DNA from: Phormidium tenue FACHB-886
GTDB taxonomy: Bacteria; Cyanobacteriota; Cyanobacteriia; Elainellales; Elainellaceae
Reading direction: 5' to 3'
Length of the DNA: 33,210 nucleotides
Assembly: GCF_014764505.1 (NCBI RefSeq)
Contig: NZ_JACXWX010000055.1
Span: 1-33,210, forward strand
Shown: one piece after another, positions 1,537-19,731 of the stretch
Numbering within the stretch: position 1 is the stretch's first letter
Layout of the letters: each line of letters opens with the position of its first letter
The notes under the pieces: model-generated
What the model was told of the DNA's origin: nothing
Seen by the model: the letters and a program-made list of their open reading frames with translations, nothing else
Databases searched by the model: none
Program-made: the position numbers and the translations under genes

Positions 1537-2862
1537 TCAGAAAATTTTTGCAGCGCTACTCACAATCCCACGACAGTCACCCAAACCAATTCTTCTATAG
1601 CCCTGCCGCTGACAATAACCCCGCAATATCACCTCATCCCCCTCGGCTAGAAACGATCGCATCTCTCCACTGGGAAGCGTAATGGGTTGGGCGCCACGTT
1701 GAGTTAATTCTAATAAACAGCCCTGTGTACCGGCTGATGCTCCTGATACTGTCCCGCTTGCCAACAAATCTCCAGGACGAAGATTGCAGCCATTACTGCC
1801 ATGATGGGTCAGCATTTGTGCCACTGTCCAATACATCTGCTGGAACGAGCTACAGCTTAAACGCAAGGACGATATTTTCTTTTGGCGCATCTGAGCTGAA
1901 GACAACAATATCTCCAAGGTTAAATCAATTCCACCCAAATTCTGATTTTCAGAAGAGCTGAGGTAGGGCAACGGCAACGGATCTTCTGAAGCCCGCGAAA
2001 AGGCAGGACAGCGAAAGGGAGCAAGAGCTTCCAGGGTAACAACCCAGGGAGAAATGGTTGTGGCAAAACTTTTGGACAGAAAAGGCCCGAGCGGTTGATA
2101 TTCCCAGGCTTGCAGATCCCGCGCTGACCAATCATTTACTAAGCAAATCCCAAAAAGATAATCTTCTGCCTGCTCGATGGCGATCGGTTGCCCTAGTTCG
2201 TTTCCCCTGCCGATGAAGCAACCCACTTCTAATTCGTAGTCCAGCATTCGAGAAGGCGCAAAGGTGGGAACAGGATCTTGCGGTTGTTTCTGCTGACCAG
2301 AGGGCCGTTGAATAGCAGTACCGCTGATGACAATCGAAGAGGCTCGACCGTGATAGGCGATCGGCACATGCTTGTAATTTGGCAGCAGCGGCTGATCGGG
2401 ACGAAACAGCTTGCCGACGTTGGTAGCATGGAAAATGGAAGCGTAGAAATCAGTGTAGTCGCCGATAACCACAGGCAGAAGCAACTGAGCGTCTGCCATC
2501 GGCACGAGGATTTCGCCGGCAAGCGGATGCTCTGATTCAGCCCGCAAAAGTTGACTGAGATGATGACGCAACTGCCACGAAGCTGTTTTTCCCAAGGACA
2601 TGATGGGATTTAAGGTCGGCGTGGCGCAGGCAGCTCGCAGTGGTTCAGGAAGTTCCCGAAGCAGCCCAACAGTACAGCAGGCAGTTAGGTCTAGAATCTG
2701 GTCACCGATCGCTACTCCAATTCGAGCTGGGTCAGCGCTGTCCTGCCGTCGGAAGACGCCGAAGGGTAAGTTTTGAATTGGAAAATCAGTGTCGGCTTGA
2801 TTGGCAGATTCAACCCAACTGCGCAAATTTGGGTCATGAGTTGCATCAATAGAGCAGTTCAT
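1537..2862 (-). CDS. fahA: Fumarylacetoacetase
   Basis: Hydrolyses fumarylacetoacetate to fumarate and acetoacetate, the last step of tyrosine/homogentisate breakdown in the cytosol. The 441-aa length fits full-length eukaryotic-type FAH: an N-terminal SH3-like domain (about 1-130) and the catalytic fold. Visible active-site residues by family alignment are D138 and H145 (GDYTDFYASIFHATNVG region), the metal pair E210/E212 in DYELEVG, D244 in NDWSARD, Q251 and K264 (PFLSKSF). The start is ATG 2862, nine nt after the stop of the upstream gene. An earlier ATG at 2875 overlaps that stop but is out of frame because of a 13-bp tandem duplication. It is in the same leftward unit as the 300-aa protein and possibly the Lrp gene, and divergent from HPPD and HGD, with which it forms one pathway. 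Confidence 0.96.
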   Translation of the reverse strand: MNCSIDATHDPNLRSWVESANQADTDFPIQNLPFGVFRRQDSADPARIGVAIGDQILDLTACCTVGLLRELPEPLRAACATPTLNPIMSLGKTASWQLRHHLSQLLRAESEHPLAGEILVPMADAQLLLPVVIGDYTDFYASIFHATNVGKLFRPDQPLLPNYKHVPIAYHGRASSIVISGTAIQRPSGQQKQPQDPVPTFAPSRMLDYELEVGCFIGRGNELGQPIAIEQAEDYLFGICLVNDWSARDLQAWEYQPLGPFLSKSFATTISPWVVTLEALAPFRCPAFSRASEDPLPLPYLSSSENQNLGGIDLTLEILLSSAQMRQKKISSLRLSCSSFQQMYWTVAQMLTHHGSNGCNLRPGDLLASGTVSGASAGTQGCLLELTQRGAQPITLPSGEMRSFLAEGDEVILRGYCQRQGYRRIGLGDCRGIVSSAAKIF

Positions 2863-2878
2863 AAGAGCAGTTCATAAG
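2851..2878. repeat. 13-bp tandem duplication at the FAH start
   Basis: The unit agcagttcataag occurs at 2853-2865 and again at 2866-2878, with two extra matching bases on the left. On the minus strand each copy contains CTTATGAACTGCT, so the start region of FAH is doubled. The upstream copy makes an ATGA overlap with the preceding stop (TGA 2874-2872), but its ATG opens only a nine-codon out-of-frame ORF. Confidence 0.85.
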
Positions 2879-3774
2879 AATCTCAAGTGATGAAGGTCGT
2901 CGATCGGTTCCTGGAACGAACAAGAACCGAAGGAACGGAAAAAATGCTGTCGAGACTGTTGAATTTCGGCTACCGAGATTGAACGATCGCGCCAGGTGAT
3001 TGCTGTGTTGGTGAACTGAAATGGCGCGATCGATTGTTCCTCAAGCATTTCCAGCGCCTCAGCTAATGTAATGTGTTGCTGATAGACGAATACAGCAAGA
3101 AGCGCCAGATTGAGAAACCCCTGCATTGTTGCAGAAGGGCTGCCCGGTTGATCAGTAAGGCGATAGCTGCCGCGTAGGGCATGGTGCAATCCGGCTGTTG
3201 CCTTAAAGGGAATTTGAGCATTGGCAAAAGATAAAATATGCTGGCTGAGTTGCGTACTGTCAGGAAAGGCGTCAGGAGCAGTGCCACCTGTACGCAGCTT
3301 GGCAGCAGTGCCTGTCTGCTGCAACACTTTCAAATACGGCTCTAAATCAGCAGAGAGTGGAATTTCAAAAAAAACTTCTATCCCAGCAGGCAAACTCAGA
3401 CCCATTTGCTGAATCTCGGCAGGTGGAAGCGGTGCAACTTCTAAAGCACAAATTTTAATCTGATTCTGATATTGGAATCCTGTTTTACGAATCTGATCGA
3501 TCTGCTCTAGCTCTGTTGCCCAGTTTCTAGAGAGAATGACGCTCAGTGCCCAGGGTTTAGATGAATAGATGCTCTCAGAAGCCGTGAAGCGGAGCTTGCT
3601 CAATTCCTGAAGGCGAGCGGCTGGTATGGCAAATCGATTGAGCAGCCAGCTCTGCGAAGAAGCTTGAGCCCGATCGTATAGGGCAACTGCCTCAGACAGG
3701 CTGAGCTGGGCGGGTGGGAAAAGCCCAGCGTAGTCTACGATCGATGCGAGAAGCTGTTTGAGTGATGTCAACAC
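2872..3774 (-). CDS. Uncharacterised FAH-associated protein, 300 aa
   Basis: No enzyme family can be named with certainty. From memory, proteins with the same landmarks recur as conserved hypotheticals, often beside homogentisate-pathway genes. The landmarks are VDYAGLFPPAQLSL near residue 13, a K-x-RTGG motif near 180, PFKATAGLHHALRG near 205 and an MQGFLNLAL segment near 235. The conserved Lys, Arg and paired His suggest an enzyme handling an acidic substrate; this is inference. There is no signal peptide or membrane helix. The start is GTG 3774, chosen because a strong AGAGGAGGTG lies eight to nine nt upstream. Its stop sits nine nt before FAH, so co-translation is likely. With maleylacetoacetate isomerase missing from the window, an isomerase role is one untested idea. 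Confidence 0.8.
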   Translation of the reverse strand: MLTSLKQLLASIVDYAGLFPPAQLSLSEAVALYDRAQASSQSWLLNRFAIPAARLQELSKLRFTASESIYSSKPWALSVILSRNWATELEQIDQIRKTGFQYQNQIKICALEVAPLPPAEIQQMGLSLPAGIEVFFEIPLSADLEPYLKVLQQTGTAAKLRTGGTAPDAFPDSTQLSQHILSFANAQIPFKATAGLHHALRGSYRLTDQPGSPSATMQGFLNLALLAVFVYQQHITLAEALEMLEEQSIAPFQFTNTAITWRDRSISVAEIQQSRQHFFRSFGSCSFQEPIDDLHHLRFL

Positions 3775-3837: not shown

Positions 3838-4338
3838 TTAATTCAAGTGCGGGACATCTAGCGGCAAAGAGGTTGATACTTTTACCTCACTCAATACAAT
3901 GCTGGTACGAATTTTATCGACTCCAGGCAGCCTTCTAATTTTTTCTGTGAGAAGTTGTTCCAGGTGTTGGGGATTGGAAACGACCACCTTCAAAAGATAA
4001 TCAAATTCACCGGTCAGATGATGACACTCTAGCACTTCTGATAACCCCTGCACCCGTTCACAAAATTGCCCAACCCATTCGGCACGTTGATGCGATAGGG
4101 TTACCTGAGTAAAACATAATAAATCTAATCCCAGCGCTTTCCGGTTAACTAGCGCGACATACCCTTCAATAAAGCCGTTTTCCTCCAGCCGCTTCAATCG
4201 CTTCTGTAAGCCTGGTACAGATAGCTTCAATTGACGTGCCAATTCAGCACTACTGATCCGACTGTTTCGCTGAAGTAGCTGCAGCAACAGCCGGTCTTTA
4301 TCATCGAGCTGCTTAAATGGGTCTGTCGGTTTGGTCAT
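3838..4338 (-). CDS. Lrp/AsnC family transcriptional regulator
   Basis: A 166-aa protein with an N-terminal winged helix-turn-helix (about 12-60: LDDKDRLLLQLLQRNSRISSAELARQLKLSVPGLQKRLKRLEENGFIEGY) and a C-terminal RAM effector domain (about 75-150; GEFDYLLKV and PGVDKIRTSIVL are typical). Family members bind amino acids and act as octamers on promoters. It lies 63 nt upstream of the 300-aa gene and FAH on the same strand and is divergent from HPPD/HGD, so it is probably the local regulator responding to tyrosine or an intermediate (inference). An inverted repeat in its own upstream region (4414-4442) is a candidate autoregulatory site. Confidence 0.92.
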   Translation of the reverse strand: MTKPTDPFKQLDDKDRLLLQLLQRNSRISSAELARQLKLSVPGLQKRLKRLEENGFIEGYVALVNRKALGLDLLCFTQVTLSHQRAEWVGQFCERVQGLSEVLECHHLTGEFDYLLKVVVSNPQHLEQLLTEKIRRLPGVDKIRTSIVLSEVKVSTSLPLDVPHLN

Positions 4339-4814: not shown

Positions 4815-5906
4815 ATGGCTGATTTCTTTCCTATTCTCCAGTTTGATCACCTTGAGTTCTATGTGGGTAACGCAAGGCAAGCAGCCGGTTTTTATGAAAC
4901 TTTTTTTGGATTCACTAATACAGCGCACCGAGGGTTAGAAACAGGGAGCCGTAAGGTTGCCTCATACCTGATGGAGCAGGGCGAAATTCGATTTGTTCTG
5001 AGTACAGCGCTGAATTCCGACCATCCGATCGCCCACAGGGTGCTCAAACATGGCGATCATGTGGCTGTAATTGCCTTAGAAGTTGCCGATGCCGTGGATG
5101 CCTACAAACAAGTGACTGCTCGGGGAGCGGCAGGAGCAATTCCTCCGACCGTTGCAGAGGATGAGCATGGACTACTGCGCTATGCGGCAATTCATGCCTA
5201 CGGGGATGTGCTAATTAAGTTTGTCGATCGGCGTGACTACCAGGGAGTTTTCGCGCCTGAATTTCAACCACGCCTCGCAGTTCAGCCGCATCGTGGGGTA
5301 GGGCTTCAAACCATCGACCACATTGTTGCCAACGTGGAACAAGGCGCGATGGAGCATTGGGTGAAGTTCTTTGCTGAAACAATGGGGTTTCATCTATTAA
5401 TTCAGTTCGATCAAAAAGCAATATCGACCCAATATTCGGCTTTGACGTCCAAAGTTGTGCAGAATGACTCTGGCAAAATTAAGCTGCCGATTAATGAACC
5501 AGCACCGGGTAAAGGTAAATCGCAAATTCAAGAATATTTAGAATATCATCAAGGAGCCGGGATTCAGCATATTGCCTGCTCAACCCACAACATCATAGAG
5601 ACGGTTACTAAAATGCGGCAGGCGGGCATCGAATTTCTGCATGTGCCAATGAATTACTACAAAAATTTAGCAACAAGAGTCGGCAAGATTGATGAATCGG
5701 TTGACCAGCTTGCAGAACTGGGAATTTTAGTCGATCGCGATCAGGAGGGGTATCTACTACAAATCTTTACTCAACCTGTTGCAGATCGTCCAACTCTATT
5801 TTTTGAAATCATTCAGCGGCAGGGGGCGCAAAGCTTCGGTGAAGGGAATTTCAAATCCCTGTTTGAAGCAATCGAACGTGAGCAAGCCCTACGAGGAAAT
5901 CTATAA
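4815..5906 (+). CDS. hpd: 4-Hydroxyphenylpyruvate dioxygenase
   Basis: Converts 4-hydroxyphenylpyruvate, O2 to homogentisate and CO2, using Fe(II). The 363-aa protein has two glyoxalase/VOC-type halves. The iron ligands by family pattern are H169 (TIDHIVANV), H252 (GAGIQHIACS) and E331 (PTLFFEIIQRQG), and the C-terminal gate helix FGEGNFKSLFEAIEREQ is intact. The start is ATG 4815 with AGGAGGA at 4803-4809. It is the first gene of a tight plus-strand run; homogentisate dioxygenase follows after 25 nt. In many cyanobacteria HPPD supplies homogentisate for tocopherol, but the direct neighbour here degrades homogentisate, pointing to catabolism. Confidence 0.97.
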   Translation: MADFFPILQFDHLEFYVGNARQAAGFYETFFGFTNTAHRGLETGSRKVASYLMEQGEIRFVLSTALNSDHPIAHRVLKHGDHVAVIALEVADAVDAYKQVTARGAAGAIPPTVAEDEHGLLRYAAIHAYGDVLIKFVDRRDYQGVFAPEFQPRLAVQPHRGVGLQTIDHIVANVEQGAMEHWVKFFAETMGFHLLIQFDQKAISTQYSALTSKVVQNDSGKIKLPINEPAPGKGKSQIQEYLEYHQGAGIQHIACSTHNIIETVTKMRQAGIEFLHVPMNYYKNLATRVGKIDESVDQLAELGILVDRDQEGYLLQIFTQPVADRPTLFFEIIQRQGAQSFGEGNFKSLFEAIEREQALRGNL

Positions 5907-5931: not shown

Positions 5932-7089
5932 ATGACCTATTACTATCGCTTGGGTACGGTTCCCCACAAACGCCATACGCAGTTTCGTCAACCCAATGGT
6001 TCGCTCTATCACGAAGAGCTGATGGGGATTCATGGGTTTTCTGGCATGCAATCGCTGCTCTATCATTTGCATCCACCTACCCAGGTTCACAAAATTCTGC
6101 TAGAGCAGACGATCGCCCTGGAGTTTGAAGAATTTGGAACATTACAGCATCGGCATTTGCGCACGAACAAGCTATCCGCCGCAGGGGATGCGATCGAGGC
6201 ACGCATTCCGCTAATGGCGAATGCAGATGTTTGTATTTCGGTTGCACAACCCACAGAGCCGATGTCCTACTGGTATCGATTTGCTCATGGGGATGAGCTG
6301 ATTTTTATTCATGAGGGAAGCGGCGTCTTAGAGAGCCAGTACGGTCTTTTACATTATGGTGCAGGAGATTACCTGGTGATTCCTACAGGCGTCATTTGGC
6401 GAATGTTGCCGGATACCGAAGTCCCCCAGCGAATGTTGATTATTGAAGCCCAGGGGCATATCGAACCGCCTGCGCGTTATCTCAACCGCTATGGTCAATT
6501 TTTGGAGCATGCGCCCTACAGCGAGCGAGATTTGCGCCCCCCAGAAACATTAGCATTCCACGATGAGATCGGTGAGTTCGAAGTGCGAATAAAAGCCCGC
6601 GATCGGATAAATGGCTATATCTACCATCATCACCCTTTAGATGTAGTGGGATGGGATGGCTACCTCTATCCCTATGCCTTCAGCATTGCCGACTTTGAAC
6701 CTGTGACCGGACGAATTCACCAGCCGCCACCCGTCCATCAGACGTTTGAAGCACCAGGATTTGTGATTTGCTCCTTTGTGCCGCGCCTGTTCGATTACCA
6801 TCCTCTAGCAATTCCTGCGCCCTACAACCACTCCAATGTCGATTCGGATGAAGTGCTTTACTACGTTAAAGGCAACTTTATGTCGCGCAAAGGTATTGAG
6901 GAAGCGTCTATTACTGTACATCCCAGCGGCATCCCCCACGGTCCGCATCCCGGTACTTATGAGGGTTCGATCGGCAAACAACGCACCGATGAACTGGCGG
7001 TGATGATCGACACCTTTCGCCCCTTAAAATTTACGCGGCAGGCGGCTGAGTTGGAGGACATCCAATATTCCTACAGTTGGATTGCTTGA
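5932..7089 (+). CDS. hmgA: Homogentisate 1,2-dioxygenase
   Basis: Opens the ring of homogentisate to maleylacetoacetate with an Fe(II) centre in a cupin-like fold. The 385-aa protein is shorter than the roughly 445-aa human enzyme and in the bacterial range. It starts with the typical YYRLGTVPHKRHTQFR and LYHEELMGIHGFSG segments. The metal region near the C-terminus is recognisable: HSNVDSDEVLYYVKGNF, then HPSGIPHGPHPG. The start is ATG 5932 with GAGGT upstream. Together with HPPD before it and fumarylacetoacetase on the other strand it makes the homogentisate branch; only maleylacetoacetate isomerase is not seen. Confidence 0.96.
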   Translation: MTYYYRLGTVPHKRHTQFRQPNGSLYHEELMGIHGFSGMQSLLYHLHPPTQVHKILLEQTIALEFEEFGTLQHRHLRTNKLSAAGDAIEARIPLMANADVCISVAQPTEPMSYWYRFAHGDELIFIHEGSGVLESQYGLLHYGAGDYLVIPTGVIWRMLPDTEVPQRMLIIEAQGHIEPPARYLNRYGQFLEHAPYSERDLRPPETLAFHDEIGEFEVRIKARDRINGYIYHHHPLDVVGWDGYLYPYAFSIADFEPVTGRIHQPPPVHQTFEAPGFVICSFVPRLFDYHPLAIPAPYNHSNVDSDEVLYYVKGNFMSRKGIEEASITVHPSGIPHGPHPGTYEGSIGKQRTDELAVMIDTFRPLKFTRQAAELEDIQYSYSWIA

Positions 7090-7144
7090 TCGAACGGTTT
7101 GAGAAGGCAATCTGTTGATTCGTTTCTCAAGGAGGTATCACCCT

Positions 7145-8065
7145 ATGACTCCGGTCACGTCTCCCTCGCATCACCTCACTGTTTCCTCTCACATTCAGGA
7201 TCGATTGTCTCAGGGCGAGCTAACGCAGCAGCAAGTCGATGACTTTCAGGATTTTCTGAATCAGGTCGATCGCGACTTTTTCCAGCATCGCATCATCACT
7301 CATAATGCCTATACGTGCTGGTTTCGCTGGGGCAATGCCACCGATGAGGAGCTACAGTATTTTATTCAGCAATTTTCGGTGTTCTCCAATCAGTTTTTGG
7401 TAGCGGCACTGTTGAAAGTTATTAATTCACCCACGCTGCAACAATCCCGCGCCAGCCGAGAGATCCTGCTAAATGAGTTAGGTGTGATTTATCGCAGGCT
7501 GGGAGACCCCAATCAACCTCAAACCTCCAAAACAGAAGAGGAAAAAGATCGGGAAGGAGATCCGGAATTTGTCAGTACGGAAGGCACAGTGGATGGTGGC
7601 ATTTGTCGCTTTCGGGCTGCCCACTTTGAGTGGCTCACTGCTGTTGCAGAGGGCTTAGGACTACACTATGAGAACATCGGTCAGCGCAAGCACGGCAGCG
7701 CCACCACACTACACTTCTGCGATGAACTGCAACGGCTGTACGGTAGCGATGACTCCAATATTGCAGAAGGGTCAAGCTTTGCAGTGGAAAATTGGGCGGC
7801 AGCAGGGTTCTGGCAGGAGCTAGAAGACGGACTGAGCCGCATTAAACAAATGCGTCATCCCCACCTGCGATTGGCATTTTTCACCTGGCACAACCGCGTG
7901 GAAGCCCAACATGCCGGACATACCTTCGCAGAACTGGAAGCGGTCTATTTTAGCCCAGACTTTGATCGCGCCAAATTTATCCAGGGGGGCAAAGAAGTCT
8001 TGAATGCGATCGCCGTCTTTTGGGATGGCTTGGAACACGATCGCCTTACATCTCTACGTCGGTGA
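7145..8065 (+). CDS. Haem-oxygenase-like diiron protein
   Basis: A 306-aa, mainly helical protein of the CADD/TenA/PqqC-like superfamily. It has a full candidate six-ligand diiron set: E111 (LLNELG), H160 (RAAHFEWL), E215 (SFAVENWAA), then H249, E253 and H256 in HNRVEAQH, an H-x3-E-x2-H version of the H-x3-D-x2-H motif of CADD. Family members are oxygen-using oxidases or desaturases/lyases of varied substrates; the substrate here is unknown. The start is ATG 7145, chosen for AAGGAGG at 7129-7135; an upstream in-frame start at 7115 has no such site. The insert between E111 and H160 (about residues 117-150) is charged and probably disordered. It sits 55 nt after HGD and 9 nt before an acyl-activating enzyme, so a product of the tyrosine pathway or a CoA/acid substrate is plausible (inference). 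Confidence 0.85.
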   Translation: MTPVTSPSHHLTVSSHIQDRLSQGELTQQQVDDFQDFLNQVDRDFFQHRIITHNAYTCWFRWGNATDEELQYFIQQFSVFSNQFLVAALLKVINSPTLQQSRASREILLNELGVIYRRLGDPNQPQTSKTEEEKDREGDPEFVSTEGTVDGGICRFRAAHFEWLTAVAEGLGLHYENIGQRKHGSATTLHFCDELQRLYGSDDSNIAEGSSFAVENWAAAGFWQELEDGLSRIKQMRHPHLRLAFFTWHNRVEAQHAGHTFAELEAVYFSPDFDRAKFIQGGKEVLNAIAVFWDGLEHDRLTSLRR

Positions 8066-8074
8066 GGCAACGCG

Positions 8075-10201
8075 ATGGCTAAACAAGTGTCGCTAGAGCA
8101 GATCTTACAGTGTGGGGTGGCGCAATCAACGGCAGATACGCTATTGCTGCTGATCAATCAATCGCTGGTGACATTACCTGCTGGCAAATGCTGGCAGCAT
8201 CTAACTCAATTGCTCAAACCCACTCATCCGTTCTCGCTGCATCAACTGCTGTATGAAACAACCTTCGGAGATTGGGATTATTGCCAGGGTCCGCCGCCTG
8301 TCTGGTCGCCTTCGGCTGCCCAGATGCAAACTACGAATATTGCCCTGCTGATGCGCGACTTAAACATCAGTTCCTACAAGGAACTACATGCTTGGTCTGT
8401 TGGCGATCGAGCCGCTTTTTGGCAGGAGATGATCCAGCGGCTCAGCATTCACTTTCGCCAACCCTACAAACAGCTAATCGATTTATCTCAGGGTGTAGCA
8501 TCGCCTCGATGGTTGGTGAATGCGCAGTTGAATATTGTCGATAGCTGTTTTCAAGCCAAAGAGGATATGCCATCGATCGTATTTCAAGCCGAAGATAGTT
8601 CCCTGGAAACCTGGACTTACAAAGAATTAGCTGCCCTGACTAATCGGGTTGCCAATGGATTAGTGGATTTGAATTTTCAACCTGGGGATGCCATCGCCAT
8701 CGATCTGCCAATGACGGCTGAAGCAGTGGCAATCTATTTGGGAATTATCAAAGCGGGCTGTGTGGTGGTGTCGATCGCAGACAGCTTTGCCGCAGCGGAA
8801 ATTGCCACCCGCCTGCGTTTAGCCAGCGCAAAAGCAATTTTTACCCAGGACTGGATTCTGCGCTGCGGTAAGCAGCTACCGCTTTATGCCAAGGTAATTG
8901 AGGCAAAAGCTCCGCTGGCGATCGTTCTGTCTAGCAGGGGTCCAGCGGTTGAATTGCGACCGGGTGACATCCGCTGGAGTAACTTTCTCAGTCCGAAGGC
9001 GATCTTTGATGCAGTTTCAACCGCTCCAGCCGCCTATACCAATATCTTGTTCTCTTCCGGCACAACCGGAGACCCTAAAGCAATTCCCTGGACGCAGACG
9101 ACCCCAATTAAATGTGCGGCAGATGGACATCTGCACCATGACATTCATGCGGGTGATGTGATTGCCTGGTCAACCAATTTGGGCTGGATGATGGGACCCT
9201 GGCTGATCTATGCTAGCTTGATTAATCGGGCGACGATCGCCCTTTATGATGGCGCACCCACCGCCCGAGCCTATGGTCAATTTATTCAGGATGCTGGAGT
9301 CACGATGCTGGGCGTCGTGCCTAGCTTGGTAAGTGCCTGGAAAGCGACAAACTGTATGCAGGGCTTGGATTGGAGTGCCATCAAAGCTTTCAGTTCTACA
9401 GGAGAATGCTCCAACCCGCAGGATATGCTGTTCCTAATGTCATTGGCGGGCTACAAACCAATCGTTGAATACTGCGGGGGAACTGAAATTGGGGGTGCTT
9501 ATATTACAGGCACTCTGGTTCAGCCCTGCGCTCCTGCCACCTTTACCACTCCAGCACTGGGTTTGGATTTCGTCATTCTGGATGCAGATGATTGTTCTGC
9601 TGACAAAGGCGAAGGATTTTTGATTCCGCCCTCGATCGGGCTCTCCACAGAGCTGTTCAATCAAGATCATCACCAAGTTTATTTTGCGGATACTCCTGCT
9701 CTACTTTCCGTGCCGCTTCGTCGACACGGTGATTATCTAGAACGTTTACCGAACGGATACTATCGCCTTTGCGGGCGAGTAGATGACACGATGAATCTGG
9801 GTGGCATCAAAGTCAGCGCAGCAGAAATTGAACGGGTGATTAATACCGTTGAGGAAATATCTGAGGGGGCAGCAATCGCTGTTTCACCCGCTAGCGGAGG
9901 ACCGAGCCAGTTGATTATTTATGCGGTGCTTGCGCCCCAAACCAATAAACCGCAGCCAGAGCTAGAACGATCGCTGCAGGTTGCCATTGCCCAACAGCTC
10001 AATCCCCTATTCAAAATTCGCGATCTGGTGATTGTGGAAGCATTACCCCGCACCGCTTCCAACAAAGTCATGCGGCGGGTTTTGCGCGATCGGTATCGAG
10101 CGATGACAGCGGATAGCGCTATTTCTACCGTTGCCCTCCTCACTTCTAGCTCCTGTACCGACGCTCCAGCGGAAAGACTCCACTTAGCTCCTAACGCCTG
10201 A
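8075..10201 (+). CDS. Acyl-activating enzyme, AAE17/18-like
   Basis: An ANL-superfamily acid:CoA ligase, 708 aa, longer than the roughly 650-aa acetyl-CoA synthetases. Core motifs are intact: P-loop ILFSSGTTGDPKAIPWTQ near 325-342, GGTEIGG near 463, GRVDDTMNLGGIKVS near 582, and the C-terminal lysine segment PRTASNKVMRRVL. The N-terminal about 150 residues, with WSVGDRAAFWQEM and SPRWLVNAQLNIVDSCF, follow the acetyl/acetoacetyl-CoA synthetase layout. The phrase GTTGDPKAIPWT recalls plant peroxisomal acyl-activating enzymes 17/18. The substrate is not fixed by sequence; acetoacetate from fumarylacetoacetase would fit, as would a hydroxyphenyl acid made by the neighbouring reductase. It follows the diiron gene by 9 nt. 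Confidence 0.88.
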   Translation: MAKQVSLEQILQCGVAQSTADTLLLLINQSLVTLPAGKCWQHLTQLLKPTHPFSLHQLLYETTFGDWDYCQGPPPVWSPSAAQMQTTNIALLMRDLNISSYKELHAWSVGDRAAFWQEMIQRLSIHFRQPYKQLIDLSQGVASPRWLVNAQLNIVDSCFQAKEDMPSIVFQAEDSSLETWTYKELAALTNRVANGLVDLNFQPGDAIAIDLPMTAEAVAIYLGIIKAGCVVVSIADSFAAAEIATRLRLASAKAIFTQDWILRCGKQLPLYAKVIEAKAPLAIVLSSRGPAVELRPGDIRWSNFLSPKAIFDAVSTAPAAYTNILFSSGTTGDPKAIPWTQTTPIKCAADGHLHHDIHAGDVIAWSTNLGWMMGPWLIYASLINRATIALYDGAPTARAYGQFIQDAGVTMLGVVPSLVSAWKATNCMQGLDWSAIKAFSSTGECSNPQDMLFLMSLAGYKPIVEYCGGTEIGGAYITGTLVQPCAPATFTTPALGLDFVILDADDCSADKGEGFLIPPSIGLSTELFNQDHHQVYFADTPALLSVPLRRHGDYLERLPNGYYRLCGRVDDTMNLGGIKVSAAEIERVINTVEEISEGAAIAVSPASGGPSQLIIYAVLAPQTNKPQPELERSLQVAIAQQLNPLFKIRDLVIVEALPRTASNKVMRRVLRDRYRAMTADSAISTVALLTSSSCTDAPAERLHLAPNA

Positions 10202-10244: not shown

Positions 10245-11225
10245 ATGCCTCAGTTCAAAGTCTTTGTCACCCGTCGCTTACCTGCTTCTTTAGAGCCACT
10301 AACCGAGCTGGCGTCGGTTGAAGTGTGGACGGAGCGCCAACCGCCATCCTATCAGGTGCTGCAGGACAAACTTCGAGCAGTAGATGGGCTACTTTGCCTA
10401 TTAACTGACCCGATCGATCGCCCGCTGATTGAAGCAGCCGCAAACCTGAAGGTGATCAGCCAGATGGCAGTAGGCTACAACAATATTGATATTGCCGCAG
10501 CGACTGCGAGGCAGATTCCCGTAGGACATACGCCCAATGTGCTGACTGATGCAACGGCAGATTTTGCCTGGGCGTTGCTGATGGCGGCCGCACGACGAGT
10601 CGTAGAAGCCGATCGGTTTACGCGGGCTAACCAGTGGCAAACCTGGGAGCCAGATTTACTGTTGGGTGCTGATGTCTCTGGAGCAACCCTGGGAATTGTC
10701 GGGCTGGGGCGAATTGGACAAGCCATGGCCCGGCGGGCTAGAGGGTTTGATATGCGGACTCTCTACACTAATCAGAAGCGCTGTGACCCAGAGCTAGAGA
10801 AAACCTTGAGCGCTGAGTTCGTGGAATTTGACTACTTGCTGCAAGCTGCTGACTTTGTCACGGTTCACACCCCCCTCACTCCAGCTACTCATCATCTGTT
10901 TGGCGAGCGGCAGTTTGAGCGGATGCAGCGATCGGCGATTTTAATCAACACAGCCAGAGGAGCGATTGTCGATCCGGTTGCTTTGTATCGTGCCTTATCG
11001 GATGGGCAAATTGCGGCAGCAGCACTGGATGTCACCGATCCAGAGCCAATTCTCGCCGATAGCCCGTTGTTAACGCTAGACAATTTGATTATTGCACCCC
11101 ATATTGCCAGCGCCAGTCGTCAGACGCGAGAAAAAATGGCAAGGATGGCGATCGACAACCTGATTGCCGGACTCCGGAGCGATCGCCTGCCTCATTGTGT
11201 CAATCCTGAAGTTTATCTAAGGTGA
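10245..11225 (+). CDS. D-2-hydroxyacid dehydrogenase
   Basis: A 326-aa NAD(P)-dependent reductase of the glyoxylate/hydroxypyruvate reductase family. The Rossmann motif is GIVGLGRIGQAMARRA (about residues 150-165). The catalytic Arg is in INTARGAIVD, Glu in DVTDPEP and His in IAPHIASAS. Closest in style to GyaR/GRHPR. Between an acyl-activating enzyme and an aminotransferase in a tyrosine run, reduction of 4-hydroxyphenylpyruvate to 4-hydroxyphenyllactate is a reasonable alternative to glyoxylate reduction; sequence alone does not decide. The start is ATG 10245; the gap from the previous gene is 43 nt. The next gene begins 4 nt after its stop. Confidence 0.9.
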   Translation: MPQFKVFVTRRLPASLEPLTELASVEVWTERQPPSYQVLQDKLRAVDGLLCLLTDPIDRPLIEAAANLKVISQMAVGYNNIDIAAATARQIPVGHTPNVLTDATADFAWALLMAAARRVVEADRFTRANQWQTWEPDLLLGADVSGATLGIVGLGRIGQAMARRARGFDMRTLYTNQKRCDPELEKTLSAEFVEFDYLLQAADFVTVHTPLTPATHHLFGERQFERMQRSAILINTARGAIVDPVALYRALSDGQIAAAALDVTDPEPILADSPLLTLDNLIIAPHIASASRQTREKMARMAIDNLIAGLRSDRLPHCVNPEVYLR

Positions 11226-11229
11226 GCGC

Positions 11230-12408
11230 ATGGAATTTGCAGAACGAATGAGTCGATTAGGCACAGAATCTGCCTTTGATGTTTTTGCCAAAGCAAAACG
11301 GATGGAGGCGCAAGGGCGATCGATTATCCATCTGGAGATTGGACAACCCGATTTTCCGACTCCCTTTACCATCTGTGAAGCAGCATTCCGTGCCATGAAA
11401 GATGGATATACAGGCTATACTCCAGCAGCGGGTTTGTGGGAATTTCGGGAAGCGATCGCTGAACATATTTCTGCCAGTAGAGGGGTGGAAGTCCAGCCGG
11501 ATGAAGTCGTTGTGACACCGGGAGCCAAACCGATTATTTTCTTCACGCTGCTGGCGTTGGTCAATCCGGGTGATGAGGTAATCTATCCTGATCCGGGTTT
11601 TCCCATATATGAATCGATTATCAATTTTGTTGGGGCAAAAGCAGTGCCTCTACCCTTACGGGAAGAAGTTGGGTTTCGCTTTCACTTCGATGATTTGAGC
11701 GCAGCGGTGTCCAATCGGACTCGTTTAGTCATTCTCAATTCTCCGCAAAACCCGACGGGCGGTTTGTTGCAGGCAAAAGATCTAGAGGCGATCGCCGCCC
11801 TGTCCGAGCAATATAATTTTTACATCCTCTCAGACGAAATTTATTCCCGCATTCTCTATGAGGGCGATCACATTAGCCCAATTCAATTTCCGAGTTTAAA
11901 ATCCCGCACGATTCTGATTGATGGTCATTCCAAAACCTATGCCATGACGGGTTGGCGGCTGGGCTACGGAATTGTTCCTAGACCGCTCGTAGAAGGGATT
12001 GTTCGCCTGATGATTAATTCCAATTCCTGCACCTGCGCTTTTACACAAATTGCTGGAATAGAAGCACTCAGAAGTTCACAAGCATTTGTCGATCAAATGG
12101 TGGCTGAATTCCAACGCCGACGAGATGCAGTTGTAGACGGGTTAAATACGATTGAGGGCATTCACTGCCTCAAACCTGCAGGTGCATTCTATGCCTTTCC
12201 CAACGTTAAGCAACTCCCCCTCACAGCTAATGCCCTGGCAGATTATCTTCTGGAAGAGGCAGGCGTATCCCTTCTATCAGGAACGGCGTTTGGCAGATTC
12301 GGTGAGGGGTATCTGAGAATCTCCTACGCCAATTCTTTGGAGAATCTTCAGCGGGCGATCGAGCGGATTCGGACGGCAATTCTCAACCGATTAGGAGAAC
12401 GGTTATGA
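11230..12408 (+). CDS. Class I PLP aminotransferase
   Basis: A fold-type I aminotransferase of the aspartate/tyrosine group, 392 aa. Seen: LEIGQPDFPTP at the N-terminus, NSPQNPTGG, DEIYSRILYEG, the PLP lysine in HSKTYAMTGWRLGYG, and a C-terminal FGRFGEGYLRISYA carrying the carboxylate-binding Arg. In this run it most probably converts tyrosine to 4-hydroxyphenylpyruvate, feeding HPPD; it could also act on other amino acids. The start is ATG 11230, preceded by AAGGTGAG at the end of the previous gene. Its last codons overlap the next gene by 4 nt (ATGA). Confidence 0.92.
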   Translation: MEFAERMSRLGTESAFDVFAKAKRMEAQGRSIIHLEIGQPDFPTPFTICEAAFRAMKDGYTGYTPAAGLWEFREAIAEHISASRGVEVQPDEVVVTPGAKPIIFFTLLALVNPGDEVIYPDPGFPIYESIINFVGAKAVPLPLREEVGFRFHFDDLSAAVSNRTRLVILNSPQNPTGGLLQAKDLEAIAALSEQYNFYILSDEIYSRILYEGDHISPIQFPSLKSRTILIDGHSKTYAMTGWRLGYGIVPRPLVEGIVRLMINSNSCTCAFTQIAGIEALRSSQAFVDQMVAEFQRRRDAVVDGLNTIEGIHCLKPAGAFYAFPNVKQLPLTANALADYLLEEAGVSLLSGTAFGRFGEGYLRISYANSLENLQRAIERIRTAILNRLGERL

Positions 12409-13274
12409 AGCACGTGGAAGGAAGATTTAGTAGCTTCGACAAGTTAAATCTTTACTATCAAAGCTGGGAACCTGACAAAGAAATACAATCCATTGTGGTA
12501 ATGGTTCACGGACTTGGAGGACATAGCAGTTTGTTTCATCCTGCTGTGCAATATCTCACTTCTCAAGGCTATATGATCTATGCCTTTGATTTACGCGGAC
12601 ATGGCCATTCTCCAGGACAGCGAGGACATGTCAACACCTGGGCTGAATTTCGGCAGGATCTGCATCTGTTTTTGCAGCAGATTCAGCAACAGCATACTTC
12701 CTATCCTTGCTTCCTGTGGGGACACAGTTTAGGAGGAACGATCGCCCTTGATTATGCCCTGCGATCGCCAGATTTTTTGAAAGGGTTGATTGTCACTGCA
12801 CCCGCATTGGAAAAAGTACAGATTTCTCCATTCAAGCTAGCTTTGGGTTGTGTGCTTTCGCAAATTGTGCCACGCTTCAGCCTCAGGCTAGGTCTTCGCA
12901 ACGATGTTTGCCTAAAAAATCCTGATATTTGCCTTGCCTATCTTCAAGATCCGTTGCGCCATGACTATGGAAGTGCTCGATTAGCCACAGAGTTTTTTGC
13001 CACAGTAAGCTGGATTTATCAGCACATTTCTGATTTGAAAATTCCACTGTTGCTGCTCCACTGCCGAGAGGATGAAGTCACCCTGGCAGAAGCAAGTCGA
13101 GATTTTTTTCAGCAAGTCATGTTTGCTGACAAGGAACATCGTGAGTATTCGGGGTGTTATCACGATCTTTATCTTGATGCAAATTACCAGATTTTAGCTG
13201 ATTTAAGTCATTGGCTAGAGCGACATGTTGGAGGCACAGCAGACGGACAGACGTTCACCCCTTGCCCTTCATAA
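12405..13274 (+). CDS. Monoacylglycerol-lipase-like alpha/beta hydrolase
   Basis: A 289-aa serine hydrolase of the lysophospholipase/monoacylglycerol lipase type. Seen: oxyanion motif MVHGLGGHS, RGHGHSPGQRGH, nucleophile elbow WGHSLGGT, an acid in LLLLHCREDEV and a catalytic His in SGCYHDLYLD. There is no signal peptide, so it is cytosolic or membrane-peripheral. It is translationally coupled to the aminotransferase by an ATGA overlap and is the last gene before the beta-oxidation block on the same strand. Release of fatty acids from acylglycerols for that block is an attractive inference. Confidence 0.88.
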   Translation: MKHVEGRFSSFDKLNLYYQSWEPDKEIQSIVVMVHGLGGHSSLFHPAVQYLTSQGYMIYAFDLRGHGHSPGQRGHVNTWAEFRQDLHLFLQQIQQQHTSYPCFLWGHSLGGTIALDYALRSPDFLKGLIVTAPALEKVQISPFKLALGCVLSQIVPRFSLRLGLRNDVCLKNPDICLAYLQDPLRHDYGSARLATEFFATVSWIYQHISDLKIPLLLLHCREDEVTLAEASRDFFQQVMFADKEHREYSGCYHDLYLDANYQILADLSHWLERHVGGTADGQTFTPCPS

Positions 13275-13836
13275 ATTTACTGGATTTTCGGGTTTTTACC
13301 GTCAAGGATCGATTGATAGGGGGAATGATCAATACAAATAAACAATGATTCAAACTACAGTTCAGACCGGGCACGCAAGCAGAAGCTACTCTCATCAAAT
13401 TTTGAAAACTTAATATCGAGAGCCTGCTTTTTCAAGAAATGTATAAAGGTTAACAAATTCATGTTTGACTTCGCTACACTAAAACTAGTTGCTGGAGAGA
13501 TTTAGACGTGTTGGAGTCGATCTCTCGGAGCGTTTAATGATTGTTGCTAATTGCTACTAATCTGAAAGGAGAGACGGAAAACTGAATCAAGGTTCAGATC
13601 TTAAAAGTCAGTACATACCTTTGTTCAAGCTGCATCTTTTTAGCTTAGGCATCGTCAGAACATCGTTGAATGTGAAGACATTGAACATGGATGTCCTGCC
13701 TTATTACTATCAGAAACTTAGAGAAGATTACTTGCATTGGTTATTTCAGCTCCAACGCACTAATCTCATTTAAACAGTTGCTTTAAAGCATTTAAAACTA
13801 CCTGTTAGAAGAAGAGAATTGTCTCTTCTAAAAAAG
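13275..13836 (+). promoter_or_regulatory. Long leader region of the fad block
   Basis: About 560 nt lacking an obvious gene separate the tyrosine run from the fad genes. It contains an inverted repeat GAGAGAT (13495-13501)/ATCTCTC (13520-13526). It also has a weak promoter-like pair TTGAAC (13681) and TACTAT with an 18-nt spacer. A 71-codon open frame, 13561-13773, has GGAGAG upstream of a CTG and an internal ATG at 13687 (26 aa, reading MDVLPYYYQKLRED...). A small ORF here is possible but unsupported by a standard start. Confidence 0.35.
13810..13829 (+). promoter_or_regulatory. Start-proximal hairpin of fad block
   Basis: AGAAGAGA (13810-13817) and TCTCTTCT (13822-13829) form a perfect 8-bp stem with a 4-nt loop, ending 7 nt before ATG 13837. 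The only purine-rich, Shine-Dalgarno-like bases (AAGAAGAGA) lie inside the left arm, so folding would hide them. This suggests control of translation by RNA folding or a bound protein. Confidence 0.5.
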
Positions 13837-16008
13837 ATGGTATGCCCTGAAAAAACTAGTCAAGTTCTGCCGGGTAACGTAATTCTAGGACGCACTCTGC
13901 CTTCACTGCTGCATGAATCCTGCACTGACGCGCTAAATACTCATGCTTTCAACCAATGGACGGAGGCAGGTTGGCGATCGCTCTCAAACCAGGCATTTCA
14001 AACTGCGATTGAAGCTTTGGCTGCTGGATTACTCAATTTGGGTTTAGAGAAAGGCGATCGGGTTGCCTTATTAATGCACAGCGATGTCAATTTTTGTATT
14101 GCGGATTTTGGCTCCCTTCTAGCGAATCTAGTGAATGTGCCGATTGATCTAACGCAGACACTCGAACACATCATCTTTGTTCTGCAACAGTGTGAAGCAA
14201 AGGCCCTGATCATCTCTAATCTGGATCTACTAACGCAAGTTGCTCCTTATCTGTGGAATACTCCCCATCTTCAGCACATCATTGTAATTACAGTTTCTCC
14301 AAACTGGCAGGAAACGCGATCGCAATGGATAAATCTGCCATCCAAATCTCAGCAGGTAGGAACGAAAGCAATTCCTGAATCGATCGGTCTAGATATCCCC
14401 ATGTTGCTCCATCCCGCCCATTTGGAGCAACCACAGTCCGTCTTTCCCCAATGCATTCAGATTTTCTCACTCAATGAAATTCAGCAAAAGGGACAGAGTT
14501 CTACAGTCAATCTACAAAACCTTTATGCCGCGTTGACCGCAAATCAGCTCGCAACAATTGTCTATGTCCCTGATGAAGCAGGACAGCCACAGGGCGTCAT
14601 GCTAACCCATGAAAATTTATCGGCAAACGCACTGGCTGCATTTGCTGCAATTTCTGACCTAAAGCGGGGAGCGCAAGAAGCGGTACTGTCTTTTTTACCC
14701 CTGAACCATGTTTTGGCTCGGACTCTGCTCTACGGGCATATTTACTATGGACACAGCATCTACTTTTCCAACCCGAACCGAGTCGTCAAACATCTCAAGG
14801 AAGTATGTCCCACTGTTTTAACAACGGTGCCGCTGTTTCTGGAGAAGATCTACAGCAAAATTTTAGAACGGGGCAGCAAAGCGCCCTCGATCGCTGAACG
14901 GGTGCTGCTGCATTGGGCGATCGGGCTAGCTAAACAATACGAGCTAGGAGTCCAGCCGCAGAGATCATATGCCGTGCGGCTGAGACTTGCAGATCGGCTT
15001 GTCTTTTCTCAATGGCGTTCATTGTTTGGCAATCGCCTTCAGCATCTCATTTGTGGAGGAGCCGCTTTAAGGGCAGAAATTGCAACTGTATTTGCTGCGG
15101 CAGGCATCCCAATCTTGCAGGGCTACGGCTTGACGCAAACGAGCGCTGTGGTTTGCTGCAATCGTACCTCGCTGAATCGGGTAGGAACGGTAGGCATACC
15201 GATTCCAGGGGTTGAGATATCAATTGCAGCCGATGGCGAAATTCTAGTGCGCGGGCCTTACGTCACTCCGGGATATTACAAAAATTCTGAAGCGACACAG
15301 GCATTAATTGATCCACAGGGCTGGCTGCATACGGGAGATTTGGGGGCAGTTACAGAGGAGGGATTTCTCAAAATTACAGGACTGAAGAAAGCGCTTTTTA
15401 AACTTTCTACTGGTAAATACATTGTGCCCCAGCCGATCGAACAGCGGTTAAAACAATCGCCTTTTGTGGCAGAGGCAATTGCCGTCGGAGCAGACCAAAA
15501 GTTTTGTGCGATGCTGATTATGCCGAATCTGTCAGCGCTGCATAGCTATGCGCTGGAAATAGGACTCGATTTACCTCATGACGCTCTGCTAAAGCACCCT
15601 TGCGTGCTGGCGCTGTATCAGGCGTTAGTCAATATTGCCAACTGCCATCTGCCCTACTGGGCAACGGTGAAGCGATTCCGACTGCTTAGTGACGCCATGC
15701 TGGAAGAACGATCGCTCACGCTATCTCAGTCTTCATCTCAATTCTTGAATCGTTCTGAGATACTTAAGGCTTTATCCAGTGAAATTGATGCTTTATTCAA
15801 AGAGGATACAACCCGGAAGGATAAAGGTACAACACAGCATACAGAAGAAATTACTTCTGTGTCAGCTTGCCCTAACCTGCCTGTAGCGACCTGTCCCGTT
15901 GTTGCTCAATCCCTTAACCCACGATTGACCACCTTGAGATCGATTGCACCGTTCATGCTTTATACAGGGATGACCATGCCCTATTTCCACACGGGAATTC
16001 CAGGATGA
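13837..16008 (+). CDS. Acyl-CoA-synthetase-like protein, catalytic residues lost
   Basis: By overall layout this is an FAA1/FadD15-type long-chain acyl-CoA synthetase, 723 aa from ATG 13837 (a TTG at 13819 would add six). Conserved are VMLTHENLSAN, LSFLPLNHVLARTL and LHTGDLG. Key sites are changed. The ATP P-loop, normally YTSGTTGxPKG, reads YVPDEAGQPQG (243-253), losing the Ser/Thr residues and the Lys. The Mg-binding Glu of YGLTE is Q434. The Arg of TGRKK is L516. The A10 lysine of LTPTxK is S632. Loss of so many sites predicts no adenylation activity. A Thr/Ser/Pro-rich tail of about 60 residues ends in MLYTGMTMPYFHTGIPG, not usual for the family. It is followed by fadN after 34 nt. A binding, scaffold or regulatory role is inferred. 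Confidence 0.88.
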   Translation: MVCPEKTSQVLPGNVILGRTLPSLLHESCTDALNTHAFNQWTEAGWRSLSNQAFQTAIEALAAGLLNLGLEKGDRVALLMHSDVNFCIADFGSLLANLVNVPIDLTQTLEHIIFVLQQCEAKALIISNLDLLTQVAPYLWNTPHLQHIIVITVSPNWQETRSQWINLPSKSQQVGTKAIPESIGLDIPMLLHPAHLEQPQSVFPQCIQIFSLNEIQQKGQSSTVNLQNLYAALTANQLATIVYVPDEAGQPQGVMLTHENLSANALAAFAAISDLKRGAQEAVLSFLPLNHVLARTLLYGHIYYGHSIYFSNPNRVVKHLKEVCPTVLTTVPLFLEKIYSKILERGSKAPSIAERVLLHWAIGLAKQYELGVQPQRSYAVRLRLADRLVFSQWRSLFGNRLQHLICGGAALRAEIATVFAAAGIPILQGYGLTQTSAVVCCNRTSLNRVGTVGIPIPGVEISIAADGEILVRGPYVTPGYYKNSEATQALIDPQGWLHTGDLGAVTEEGFLKITGLKKALFKLSTGKYIVPQPIEQRLKQSPFVAEAIAVGADQKFCAMLIMPNLSALHSYALEIGLDLPHDALLKHPCVLALYQALVNIANCHLPYWATVKRFRLLSDAMLEERSLTLSQSSSQFLNRSEILKALSSEIDALFKEDTTRKDKGTTQHTEEITSVSACPNLPVATCPVVAQSLNPRLTTLRSIAPFMLYTGMTMPYFHTGIPG

Positions 16009-16042
16009 TAACCCAGTCCTTTACGAGGAGGTTTTTAAAGTC

Positions 16043-18385: not shown

Positions 18386-18410
18386 AAGGGAACTAGAGAG
18401 GACATGAGTA

Positions 18411-19592
18411 ATGAAAGACGCATACATCGTCAGCAGTGTTAGAACAGCGGTAGGCAAAGCCCCACGTGGAACGCTTCGCACCATGCGTCCTGATGATATG
18501 GGTGCTATTGCGGTGAAGGCAGCGATCGATCGAGTCAAGGGTCTGGAACCGGAGCAAGTCGATGACGTGGTTCTAGGATGCGCTTTCCCGGAAGCAGAGC
18601 AAGGGTTTAATTTGGCACGAATTGTGGCTCAGCGAGCCGGACTGCCCGACTCAGTTGCAGGCTGTACGGTCAACCGTTTCTGTGCCTCTGGTCTACAAAC
18701 GATCGCCATGGCTACCCAGGCAATTATGACCGGTCAGGCGGACGTAATGGTAGCTGGAGGAGCAGAATCAATGAGCTTGATTCCCATGGGTGGACATACA
18801 CTCGCACCCAACCCAAACTTGGTAGCAGAAATGCCTCAAGCATATTGCACGATGGGATTGACCGCAGAAAACGTGGCTCAGCAATACGGCATCTCCCGGG
18901 AAGACCAAGATACCTTTGCGCTGCGATCGCATCAACGCGCCCTTGCTGCCATTCAGGCTGGGAAGTTTGATGAGGAGATCGTGCCAATGCAGGTGCGAGA
19001 AACTCTGTACCAAGACGACGAACTGCAAACAAAAGAAATTCTGTTCCAGACTGATGAAGGGCCACGACCTGACAGCAGCTTAGAAGCTCTGGCTAAATTG
19101 CCTACGGTCTTTCATGTTAGAGGCAGCGTCACAGCAGGAAACACATCGCAGATGTCAGATGGTGCAGCAGCAACGGTAATTATGAATGAGCAGATGGTCA
19201 ATCGACTGGGTATTCAACCGCTAGGTCGGCTGATTGGATTTGCTACCGCAGGTGTGCCTCCAGAAGTTATGGGAATTGGTCCTGTAGCAGCCGTTCCGAA
19301 AGTGTTGCAGCAGGTAGGTTTAACGCTGGATGATATCGGCTTGATTGAGCTAAATGAAGCCTTTGCCGCTCAAAGCCTGGCTGTGATTCGCAAGCTTGAT
19401 CTCAATGAAGAGATTCTGAACGTGAATGGTGGAGCGATCGCACTGGGTCATCCTCTAGGAATGACTGGGGCAAAACTCACAGCAACAATACTGCACGAAA
19501 TGAAACGGCGCGGTGTGCGATATGGGCTAGTGACAATGTGCGTTGGTGGCGGGATGGGTGCTGCGGGAGTATTTGAGAATTTGATGGTTTGA
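18411..19592 (+). CDS. fadA: Acetyl-CoA acyltransferase (thiolase)
   Basis: Cleaves 3-ketoacyl-CoA to acetyl-CoA and a shortened acyl-CoA. At 393 aa it is standard length. Catalytic residues are C91 (NRFCASGLQ), H347 ([16 protein letters not shown]) and C377 ([12 protein letters not shown]); N-terminal [13 protein letters not shown] is typical of degradative thiolases. The start is ATG 18411 with GAGAGGA at 18395-18401; an earlier ATG at 18404 is out of frame. Position after fadN repeats the fadN-fadA order known in Bacillus, which supports a degradative rather than biosynthetic role. Confidence 0.95.
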
Positions 19593-19619
19593 CAACAATT
19601 GGGTGGAACGTTGCAGGAG

Positions 19620-19703
19620 GTAGGGACGTAATATTCGGTTAGGAACTTTGTGATGTGTAACCGCTGATGTGTAAGAGTCGCCGATCGGATGCTGCGTCCC
19701 TAC
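19620..19703. repeat. MITE-like inverted repeat between fadA and fadE
   Basis: GTAGGGACG (19620-19628) and CGTCCCTAC (19695-19703) are perfect 9-bp inverted ends around 66 nt. GTAGGGACG-type ends resemble common dispersed small repeats of cyanobacteria (general knowledge, not checked). Inside, TGATGTGTAA is directly repeated at 19651-19660 and 19665-19674. The element fills most of the 139-nt gap. Confidence 0.5.
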
Positions 19704-19731
19704 AAAATTTTCAATCATTTGGTGAAATACT

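Follow-up and report, generated by a model that had tools for sequence, protein, structure and literature searches.

To our knowledge, only one type of enzyme is established for the 4-hydroxylation of phenylalanine, namely iron hydroxylases that depend on pterin (PAH or PhhA; PF00351). Their fold differs from the haem-oxygenase-like fold of the haem-oxygenase-like diiron oxidases (HDOs), among them CADD, BesC, UndA, AetD, HrmI, and FlcD. Reactions of HDOs given in a review of the group include N-oxygenation, C-C cleavage, desaturation, and the formation of azetidines and alkynes (PMC13108848). Here we analyzed a protein which shares the fold of these enzymes and is encoded in a stretch of 33,210 nucleotides (nt) from Phormidium tenue FACHB-886 (contig NZ_JACXWX010000055.1, here C207; genome 8.9 Mb), referred to as a whole as the window. 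Its gene lies in a tyrosine/homogentisate operon, alongside genes for 4-hydroxyphenylpyruvate dioxygenase (HPPD), a protein resembling homogentisate 1,2-dioxygenase (HGD), an acyl-CoA ligase, and an aminotransferase. From this context we consider it slightly more probable than the opposite that the protein is a pterin-independent phenylalanine 4-hydroxylase, heading the homogentisate pathway in place of PAH. If true, the diiron replacement would explain how phenylalanine enters tyrosine catabolism in bacteria lacking PAH, and HDOs would gain a new reaction and with it a place in primary metabolism. The assignment would also name a protein family annotated as "hypothetical protein", as is the case in the one annotated record that we looked at.

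The open reading frame (ORF) of the HDO is listed from a TTG at 7115. The ATG at 7145 is the likelier start, since AAGGAGG at 7129-7135 precedes it, and yields a protein of 306 amino acids (aa). The gene follows the HGD-like gene after 55 nt, stops with TGA at 8063-8065, and lies nine nt before the ATG of the ligase gene at 8075. A first-pass annotation of the window had proposed a haem-oxygenase-like protein with the ligand set E111, H160, E215, H249, E253, and H256, nine nt upstream of the ligase gene and inside a run of tyrosine genes, all of which is in good agreement with our findings. All six residues are found at these positions, without variation in 50 of 50 sequences (alignment A2) and in the seven sequences of alignment A1, which includes a clade of 36-37% identity. 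Four of them, E215 and H249/E253/H256, align with the E and the HxxxExxH motif of BesC. The spacing of E111 and H160 is 49 residues in the window protein and 23 in the 36-37% identical clade (counted by hand); a segment GDPE-V--EGTVDGG is conserved between both ligands. F77, F80, and F84 are invariant, too. According to the description of AetD in PMC11611611, that enzyme has in common with the window protein the HxxxExxH motif on the last core helix and a set of three histidines and three carboxylates. The same source describes the first core helix of CADD and SznF as broken by a loop, at a place matching the gap between E111 and H160, and AetD residues F44 and F48 as lying against its tryptophan substrate (PMC11611611). 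Our guess is that the latter two correspond to F80 and F84.

An AlphaFold2 model of the protein (mean predicted local distance difference test, pLDDT, 84.4) adopts the haem-oxygenase-like fold. CADD is the top Foldseek match (E 1.8e-5), and VIA-align gives Z values of 18.9-19.8 to 3bjd, FlcD, BesC, and HrmI. PqqC and TenA proteins have the same fold and reach Z 15-18, and the fold alone is insufficient for HDO membership. We filed the window protein as an HDO by its fold together with the conserved ligands; metal binding and O2 activation are predicted on this basis. Clustering of the six residues, suggested in the first-pass annotation as a matter for structure prediction, is partly shown: E111 and H160 fall in blocks with pLDDT of 60 and 56, and the model is poor for the residues in between. 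All six ligands would presumably be close in space.

With a profile of 50 HDOs, no PDB sequence was matched at E 0.01, and the matches at E 10 were all weak. Thus, kinship with the solved HDOs relies on the fold and weak alignments of single sequences. No Pfam family, Biopterin_H (PF00351) included, matched the window protein at E 0.001. Its sole NCBIfam matches, BesC (NF042919, 23.9 of 500 bits) and CADD (TIGR04305, 20.9 of 200 bits), are far under the cut-offs, and on these results we rejected membership in the BesC, CADD, or PAH families. The window protein differs from known HDOs in that it reaches no curated family, has a long E111-H160 spacing, and is tied to tyrosine catabolism. With PAH it has no sequence match, but it shares the proposed reaction and the place in HPPD/HGD clusters.

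A profile search with one genome per species yielded 207 relatives of the HDO. The neighborhood counts given here and below use the 80 that were kept, 47 loci of a cyanobacterial type and 33 others (planctomycetes, acidobacteria, Vampirovibrio, Neomarinimicrobiota, and more; phyla by record title), and refer to genes within 6 kb of HDO. HPPD and HGD both occur in 46 of the 47 cyanobacterial-type loci; in the exception, the contig ends 320 nt upstream of HDO. In 45 of the 47, HGD immediately precedes HDO. Among the other loci, HPPD is present in 15 of 33, directly downstream in 12. Several planctomycete loci, L066 among them, have the order HDO-HPPD-FAH-HGD (FAH, fumarylacetoacetase) without the ligase, and in the acidobacterium G512 HDO is divergent from HPPD-HGD-ligase. 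A set of 28 HDO genomes was chosen for scans with curated models, and HPPD exceeds its cut-off in 21 of them. Of the 47 cyanobacterial-type loci, 34 have a ligase like that of the window, 24 of them as the next gene; none of the 33 others has one, though 15 of these have HPPD. Consequently, HDO and ligase are separable and form no obligate pair. The conservation of the pair beside HPPD and HGD, to be expected from the first-pass annotation, thus holds for HDO and in most cyanobacterial-type loci for the ligase, but not for the ligase elsewhere.

PAH (PF00351) was found in none of the 28 chosen HDO genomes. We further studied three phylum samples, of 292 Cyanobacteriota, 169 Planctomycetota, and 184 Acidobacteriota genomes, and HDO and PAH occur together in no genome of any of them. 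The Cyanobacteriota comprise seven genomes with HDO, eight with PAH, and 20 with HGD; HGD is present in all seven HDO genomes and in seven of the eight PAH genomes, and six HGD genomes have neither enzyme. In the Planctomycetota we counted two strong and two weak HDO matches, 12 PAH genomes, and 14 strong plus two weak HGD matches, where the 14 strong-HGD genomes divide into nine with PAH, two with HDO, and three with neither. The Acidobacteriota show two strong and two weak HDO matches, 56 PAH genomes, and HPPD in 60 genomes over the cut-off plus three just below. Of these 63, 51 have PAH, four have HDO, and eight have neither.

Multiplied together, the P values for the lack of overlap in the three samples give 8e-5 with strong matches only and with genomes treated as independent. 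This product falls to 2e-6 when the two weak acidobacterial HDOs are included, a figure on which we do not rely. The weak matches (G543 and G551 from acidobacteria, G341 and G450 from planctomycetes), excluded from the main figure and none of them among the PAH genomes, are proteins of 223-328 aa with 27-29% identity where BLAST aligned; G450 has no BLAST match. No tyrosine gene was recognized in the 9-12 kb around each. A further test compared the HDO genomes with the PAH rate of their HPPD- or HGD-bearing relatives, with G309, G297, and G298 added from outside the phylum samples: PAH is absent from all three acidobacterial and from all four planctomycete HDO genomes (P ~0.004 each).

Along this line, PAH itself occupies the same clusters elsewhere. 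The planctomycete locus L130 reads PAH-HPPD-HGD-FAH, and in the planctomycetes L127 and L128 one or two ORFs separate HGD from a PAH gene further downstream. For L127 and L130, the PAH scores exceed the curated cut-offs. In Sphingobium, phhA adjoins hppD. Within family f36, HDO occurs in one genome (G035) and PAH in another (G047, 74% complete).

Taken as a whole, the cluster is probably a phenylalanine/tyrosine catabolic pathway with HDO and ligase at its two ends, rather than a branch. We tentatively assign the conversion of phenylalanine to tyrosine to the HDO because HPPD, HGD, FAH, and the aminotransferase cover tyrosine catabolism and leave this O2-dependent step without an enzyme. As a non-heme diiron (or Fe/Mn) monooxygenase, the HDO would use O2 and two external electrons to convert phenylalanine into tyrosine. 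The aminotransferase would produce 4-hydroxyphenylpyruvate, from which HPPD would form homogentisate and HGD maleylacetoacetate; after an isomerization step, FAH would release fumarate and acetoacetate. The ligase would activate acetoacetate to acetoacetyl-CoA, and a thiolase would split the latter to acetyl-CoA. For the HDO we infer the reaction, substrate, metals, and electron donor, and for the ligase the substrate. Among the titles and starts of abstracts listed in literature searches (in some of them the best 25 of 266, 15 of 684, 12 of 18, and 15 of 48,432 matches), which covered few subscription journals and no bioRxiv, none reports a phenylalanine-hydroxylating HDO. The chances seem evenly balanced for the wider statement that the diiron HDOs of Cyanobacteriota, Planctomycetota, Acidobacteriota, and several other phyla (by record titles) constitute a second, pterin-independent kind of phenylalanine 4-hydroxylase, which replaces PAH and adds ring hydroxylation to the HDO reactions, with the cyanobacterial ligase as a new branch of acetoacetyl-CoA synthetases.

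ACAS_N, AMP-binding, and C-terminal domains are recognized in the ligase. Among the NCBIfam models, it scores best with the acetoacetate--CoA ligase model PRK03584 (265 bits, cut-off 639), followed by the acetate--CoA ligase (AcsA) model with 247 bits (cut-off 724.95) and TIGR01217, again acetoacetate--CoA ligase, with 212 bits (cut-off 520.9). Membership in the curated acetoacetate--CoA ligase family was rejected, as the scores are below the cut-offs of both PRK03584 and TIGR01217. Compared with acetoacetate--CoA ligase and AcsA, the protein carries about 95 extra N-terminal residues. Its residues C467-G468-G469, shared by all 14 ligases aligned, take the place of W413-W414-Q415 in Salmonella Acs. 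Given the role of Trp414 there, C-G-G would fit an acid exceeding acetate in size. As acetoacetate is set free by FAH along with fumarate, ligase and thiolase together would give acetyl-CoA. A thiolase gene lies beside the ligase gene in six loci; the one scanned, from L020, is PhaA-like (706 of 740 bits) and above the TIGR01930 cut-off. Two results speak against acetoacetate. A profile of the ligases searched against the PDB scores best with acetate--CoA ligase (243 bits; 195 for the acetoacetate--CoA ligase 4wd1), and the ligase beside HPPD-HGD in G512 reaches 547 bits with the acetate and 413 bits with the acetoacetate model, both below cut-off. The family scores do not settle the substrate; we regard acetoacetate as reasonably probable.

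Several findings weigh against phenylalanine hydroxylation by the HDO. Neither HPPD nor HGD was seen in 18 of the 33 other loci, and seven of these 18 have less than 1.5 kb of flank on one side; among the 28 chosen HDO genomes, four lack any HPPD match and three have partial or weak ones only; and the 7 kb on each side of the Gloeothece HDO (L147) contain no HPPD. Nor was a reductase gene observed with HDO. The P values assume independent genomes, while three of the seven Cyanobacteriota HDO genomes belong to one family, and outside the window's own class the P value for no overlap in the Cyanobacteriota is 0.09. PAH is rare in this phylum anyway (8 of 292 genomes). The 17 HGD- or HPPD-bearing genomes with neither HDO nor PAH (six, three, and eight per sample) indicate that the pathway does not require one of the two. 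Ring hydroxylation is not among the HDO reactions listed in section 4 of the review (PMC13108848). Finally, the evidence for the role of the HDO is computational throughout: the fold, the invariant ligands, the conserved gene order, the lack of PAH in the HDO genomes examined, and the presence of PAH in the same clusters elsewhere.

Since linkage to HPPD and HGD alone leaves the step unfixed, the HDO might act elsewhere in or beside the tyrosine/homogentisate pathway, on tyrosine, an intermediate, or a toxic by-product, with the lack of PAH as a lineage effect; few independent lineages stand behind the exclusion. We consider this unlikely, though it deserves attention: PAH fills the same clusters elsewhere, the exclusion recurs in three phyla, and 51 of 61 other HPPD-bearing acidobacteria have PAH. 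HPPD linkage and PAH exclusion would equally be expected if the HDO hydroxylated phenylpyruvate, after transamination, to 4-hydroxyphenylpyruvate and so fed HPPD directly, thereby filling an equivalent role with the keto acid as substrate. This appears less likely still, as characterized HDOs, by the account in the review, mostly use amino or fatty acids (PMC13108848), and AetD is described as gripping its substrate via the amino and carboxyl groups (PMC11611611).

Two further readings have very little probability. The first-pass annotation had joined HDO, ligase, and the D-2-hydroxyacid dehydrogenase, all of which are in the window operon, to a side branch in which 4-hydroxyphenylpyruvate is reduced to hydroxyphenyllactate, activated with CoA, and finally oxidized or cleaved at a C-C bond by the HDO. 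We rejected this branch because neither partner travels with HDO throughout: the dehydrogenase is near HDO in three of 47 cyanobacterial-type loci and one of 33 others, the ligase in 34 and none. Equally improbable is that the HDO performs self-sacrificing p-aminobenzoate synthesis or C-C cleavage in the manner of CADD or BesC and is merely located in the operon. CADD is indeed the top Foldseek match, and BesC and CADD are the sole NCBIfam matches, but at 20.9/200 for CADD and 23.9/500 for BesC, and HPPD linkage in cyanobacterial, planctomycete, and acidobacterial loci is unexpected for folate synthesis.

The features of the window are collected in Table 1. Between HPPD and the aminotransferase, neighboring genes are 25, 55, 9, 43, and 4 nt apart, as in an operon; promoter and terminator scans gave no signal above chance level. 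The HGD-like protein is barely above the gathering thresholds of HgmA_N (27.7, threshold 20.2) and HgmA_C (21.3, threshold 21), and with 54.3 bits it is below the TIGR01015 cut-off of 510.75. Within 6 kb of HDO, an aminotransferase gene is found in seven and an Lrp/AsnC-type regulator gene in 17 of the 47 cyanobacterial-type loci.

Table 1. Features of the window around the HDO gene (positions in nt of the window).
Feature	Position	Strand	Basis or remark
Fumarylacetoacetase (FAH)	1537..2862	-	TIGR01266 533 bits, cut-off 375
300-aa protein, no family	2872..3774	-	kept beside FAH in relatives
Lrp/AsnC-type regulator	3838..4338	-	divergent from plus-strand operon
4-Hydroxyphenylpyruvate dioxygenase (HPPD)	4815..5906	+	TIGR01263 425 bits, cut-off 277
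Divergent homogentisate 1,2-dioxygenase-like (HGD) protein	5932..7089	+	Pfam HgmA_N, HgmA_C
Shine-Dalgarno-like AAGGAGG	7129..7135	+	precedes ATG 7145
HDO-fold protein, 306 aa, proposed pterin-independent phenylalanine 4-hydroxylase	7145..8065	+	fold, six putative metal ligands
AMP-forming acyl-CoA ligase, 708 aa, proposed acetoacetate activation	8075..10201	+	domains, family scores
D-2-hydroxyacid dehydrogenase	10245..11225	+	PF02826
Class I/II aminotransferase, candidate for tyrosine to 4-hydroxyphenylpyruvate	11230..12408	+	PF00155
Alpha/beta hydrolase, operon end	12405..13274	+	Hydrolase_4
Acyl-CoA synthetase, 780-aa 3-hydroxyacyl-CoA dehydrogenase/enoyl-CoA hydratase fusion, thiolase, acyl-CoA dehydrogenase	13819..22176	+	consecutive genes

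The 300-aa protein encoded beside FAH has a relative near the HDO cluster in 36 of the 47 cyanobacterial-type loci, often adjoining FAH. It matches no Pfam and no NCBIfam family. Its structure model (pLDDT 90.9) has no Foldseek match at E 0.001, and the weaker matches include, by our own reading, many TIM barrels. Because the cluster has no recognized maleylacetoacetate isomerase, the protein is, speculatively, a candidate for the missing enzyme.

Apart from the window, L042 and L057 are the only loci where a relative of the alpha/beta hydrolase at the operon end was observed near the cluster. Outside the window, the Phormidium genome encodes a second HPPD (G000:C1:759446-760480; 320 bits, above cut-off), which perhaps serves plastoquinone or tocopherol synthesis. 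The genes at 13819-22176 resemble a beta-oxidation cluster, an arrangement unusual for cyanobacteria; three of them also occur near the HDO cluster in L019.

In family f38, three genomes have, besides HDO and HGD, a FAH-like gene and one for a protein of 255 aa. Proteins of 255-259 aa are encoded between HGD and HDO in L014 (8466-9245), L015 (10590-11357), and L016 (7558-8334), whose genomes have no HPPD match. By eye, they look like the catalytic half of HPPD; no family model matched the one from L015, the only one tested. In six of the 33 other loci (L079, L081, L087, L088, L091, and L092), which lack HPPD nearby, an Lrp/AsnC-type gene lies directly before HDO. A cyanobacterial-type Lrp/HPPD-HGD-HDO cluster, its HDO 74% identical, is filed under Candidatus Gracilibacteria (L040) and is probably a binning error.

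On plasmid Cy782201 of Gloeothece verrucosa (L147:7001-9896) and in L017, HDO is followed by a 2-oxoglutarate-Fe dioxygenase gene and a cysteine-desulfurase-like gene. Downstream of HDO, some cyanobacterial-type loci contain indoleamine 2,3-dioxygenase or glycine C-acetyltransferase clusters (seven loci each), five have a threonine ammonia-lyase gene, and L035 has one for L-serine ammonia-lyase.

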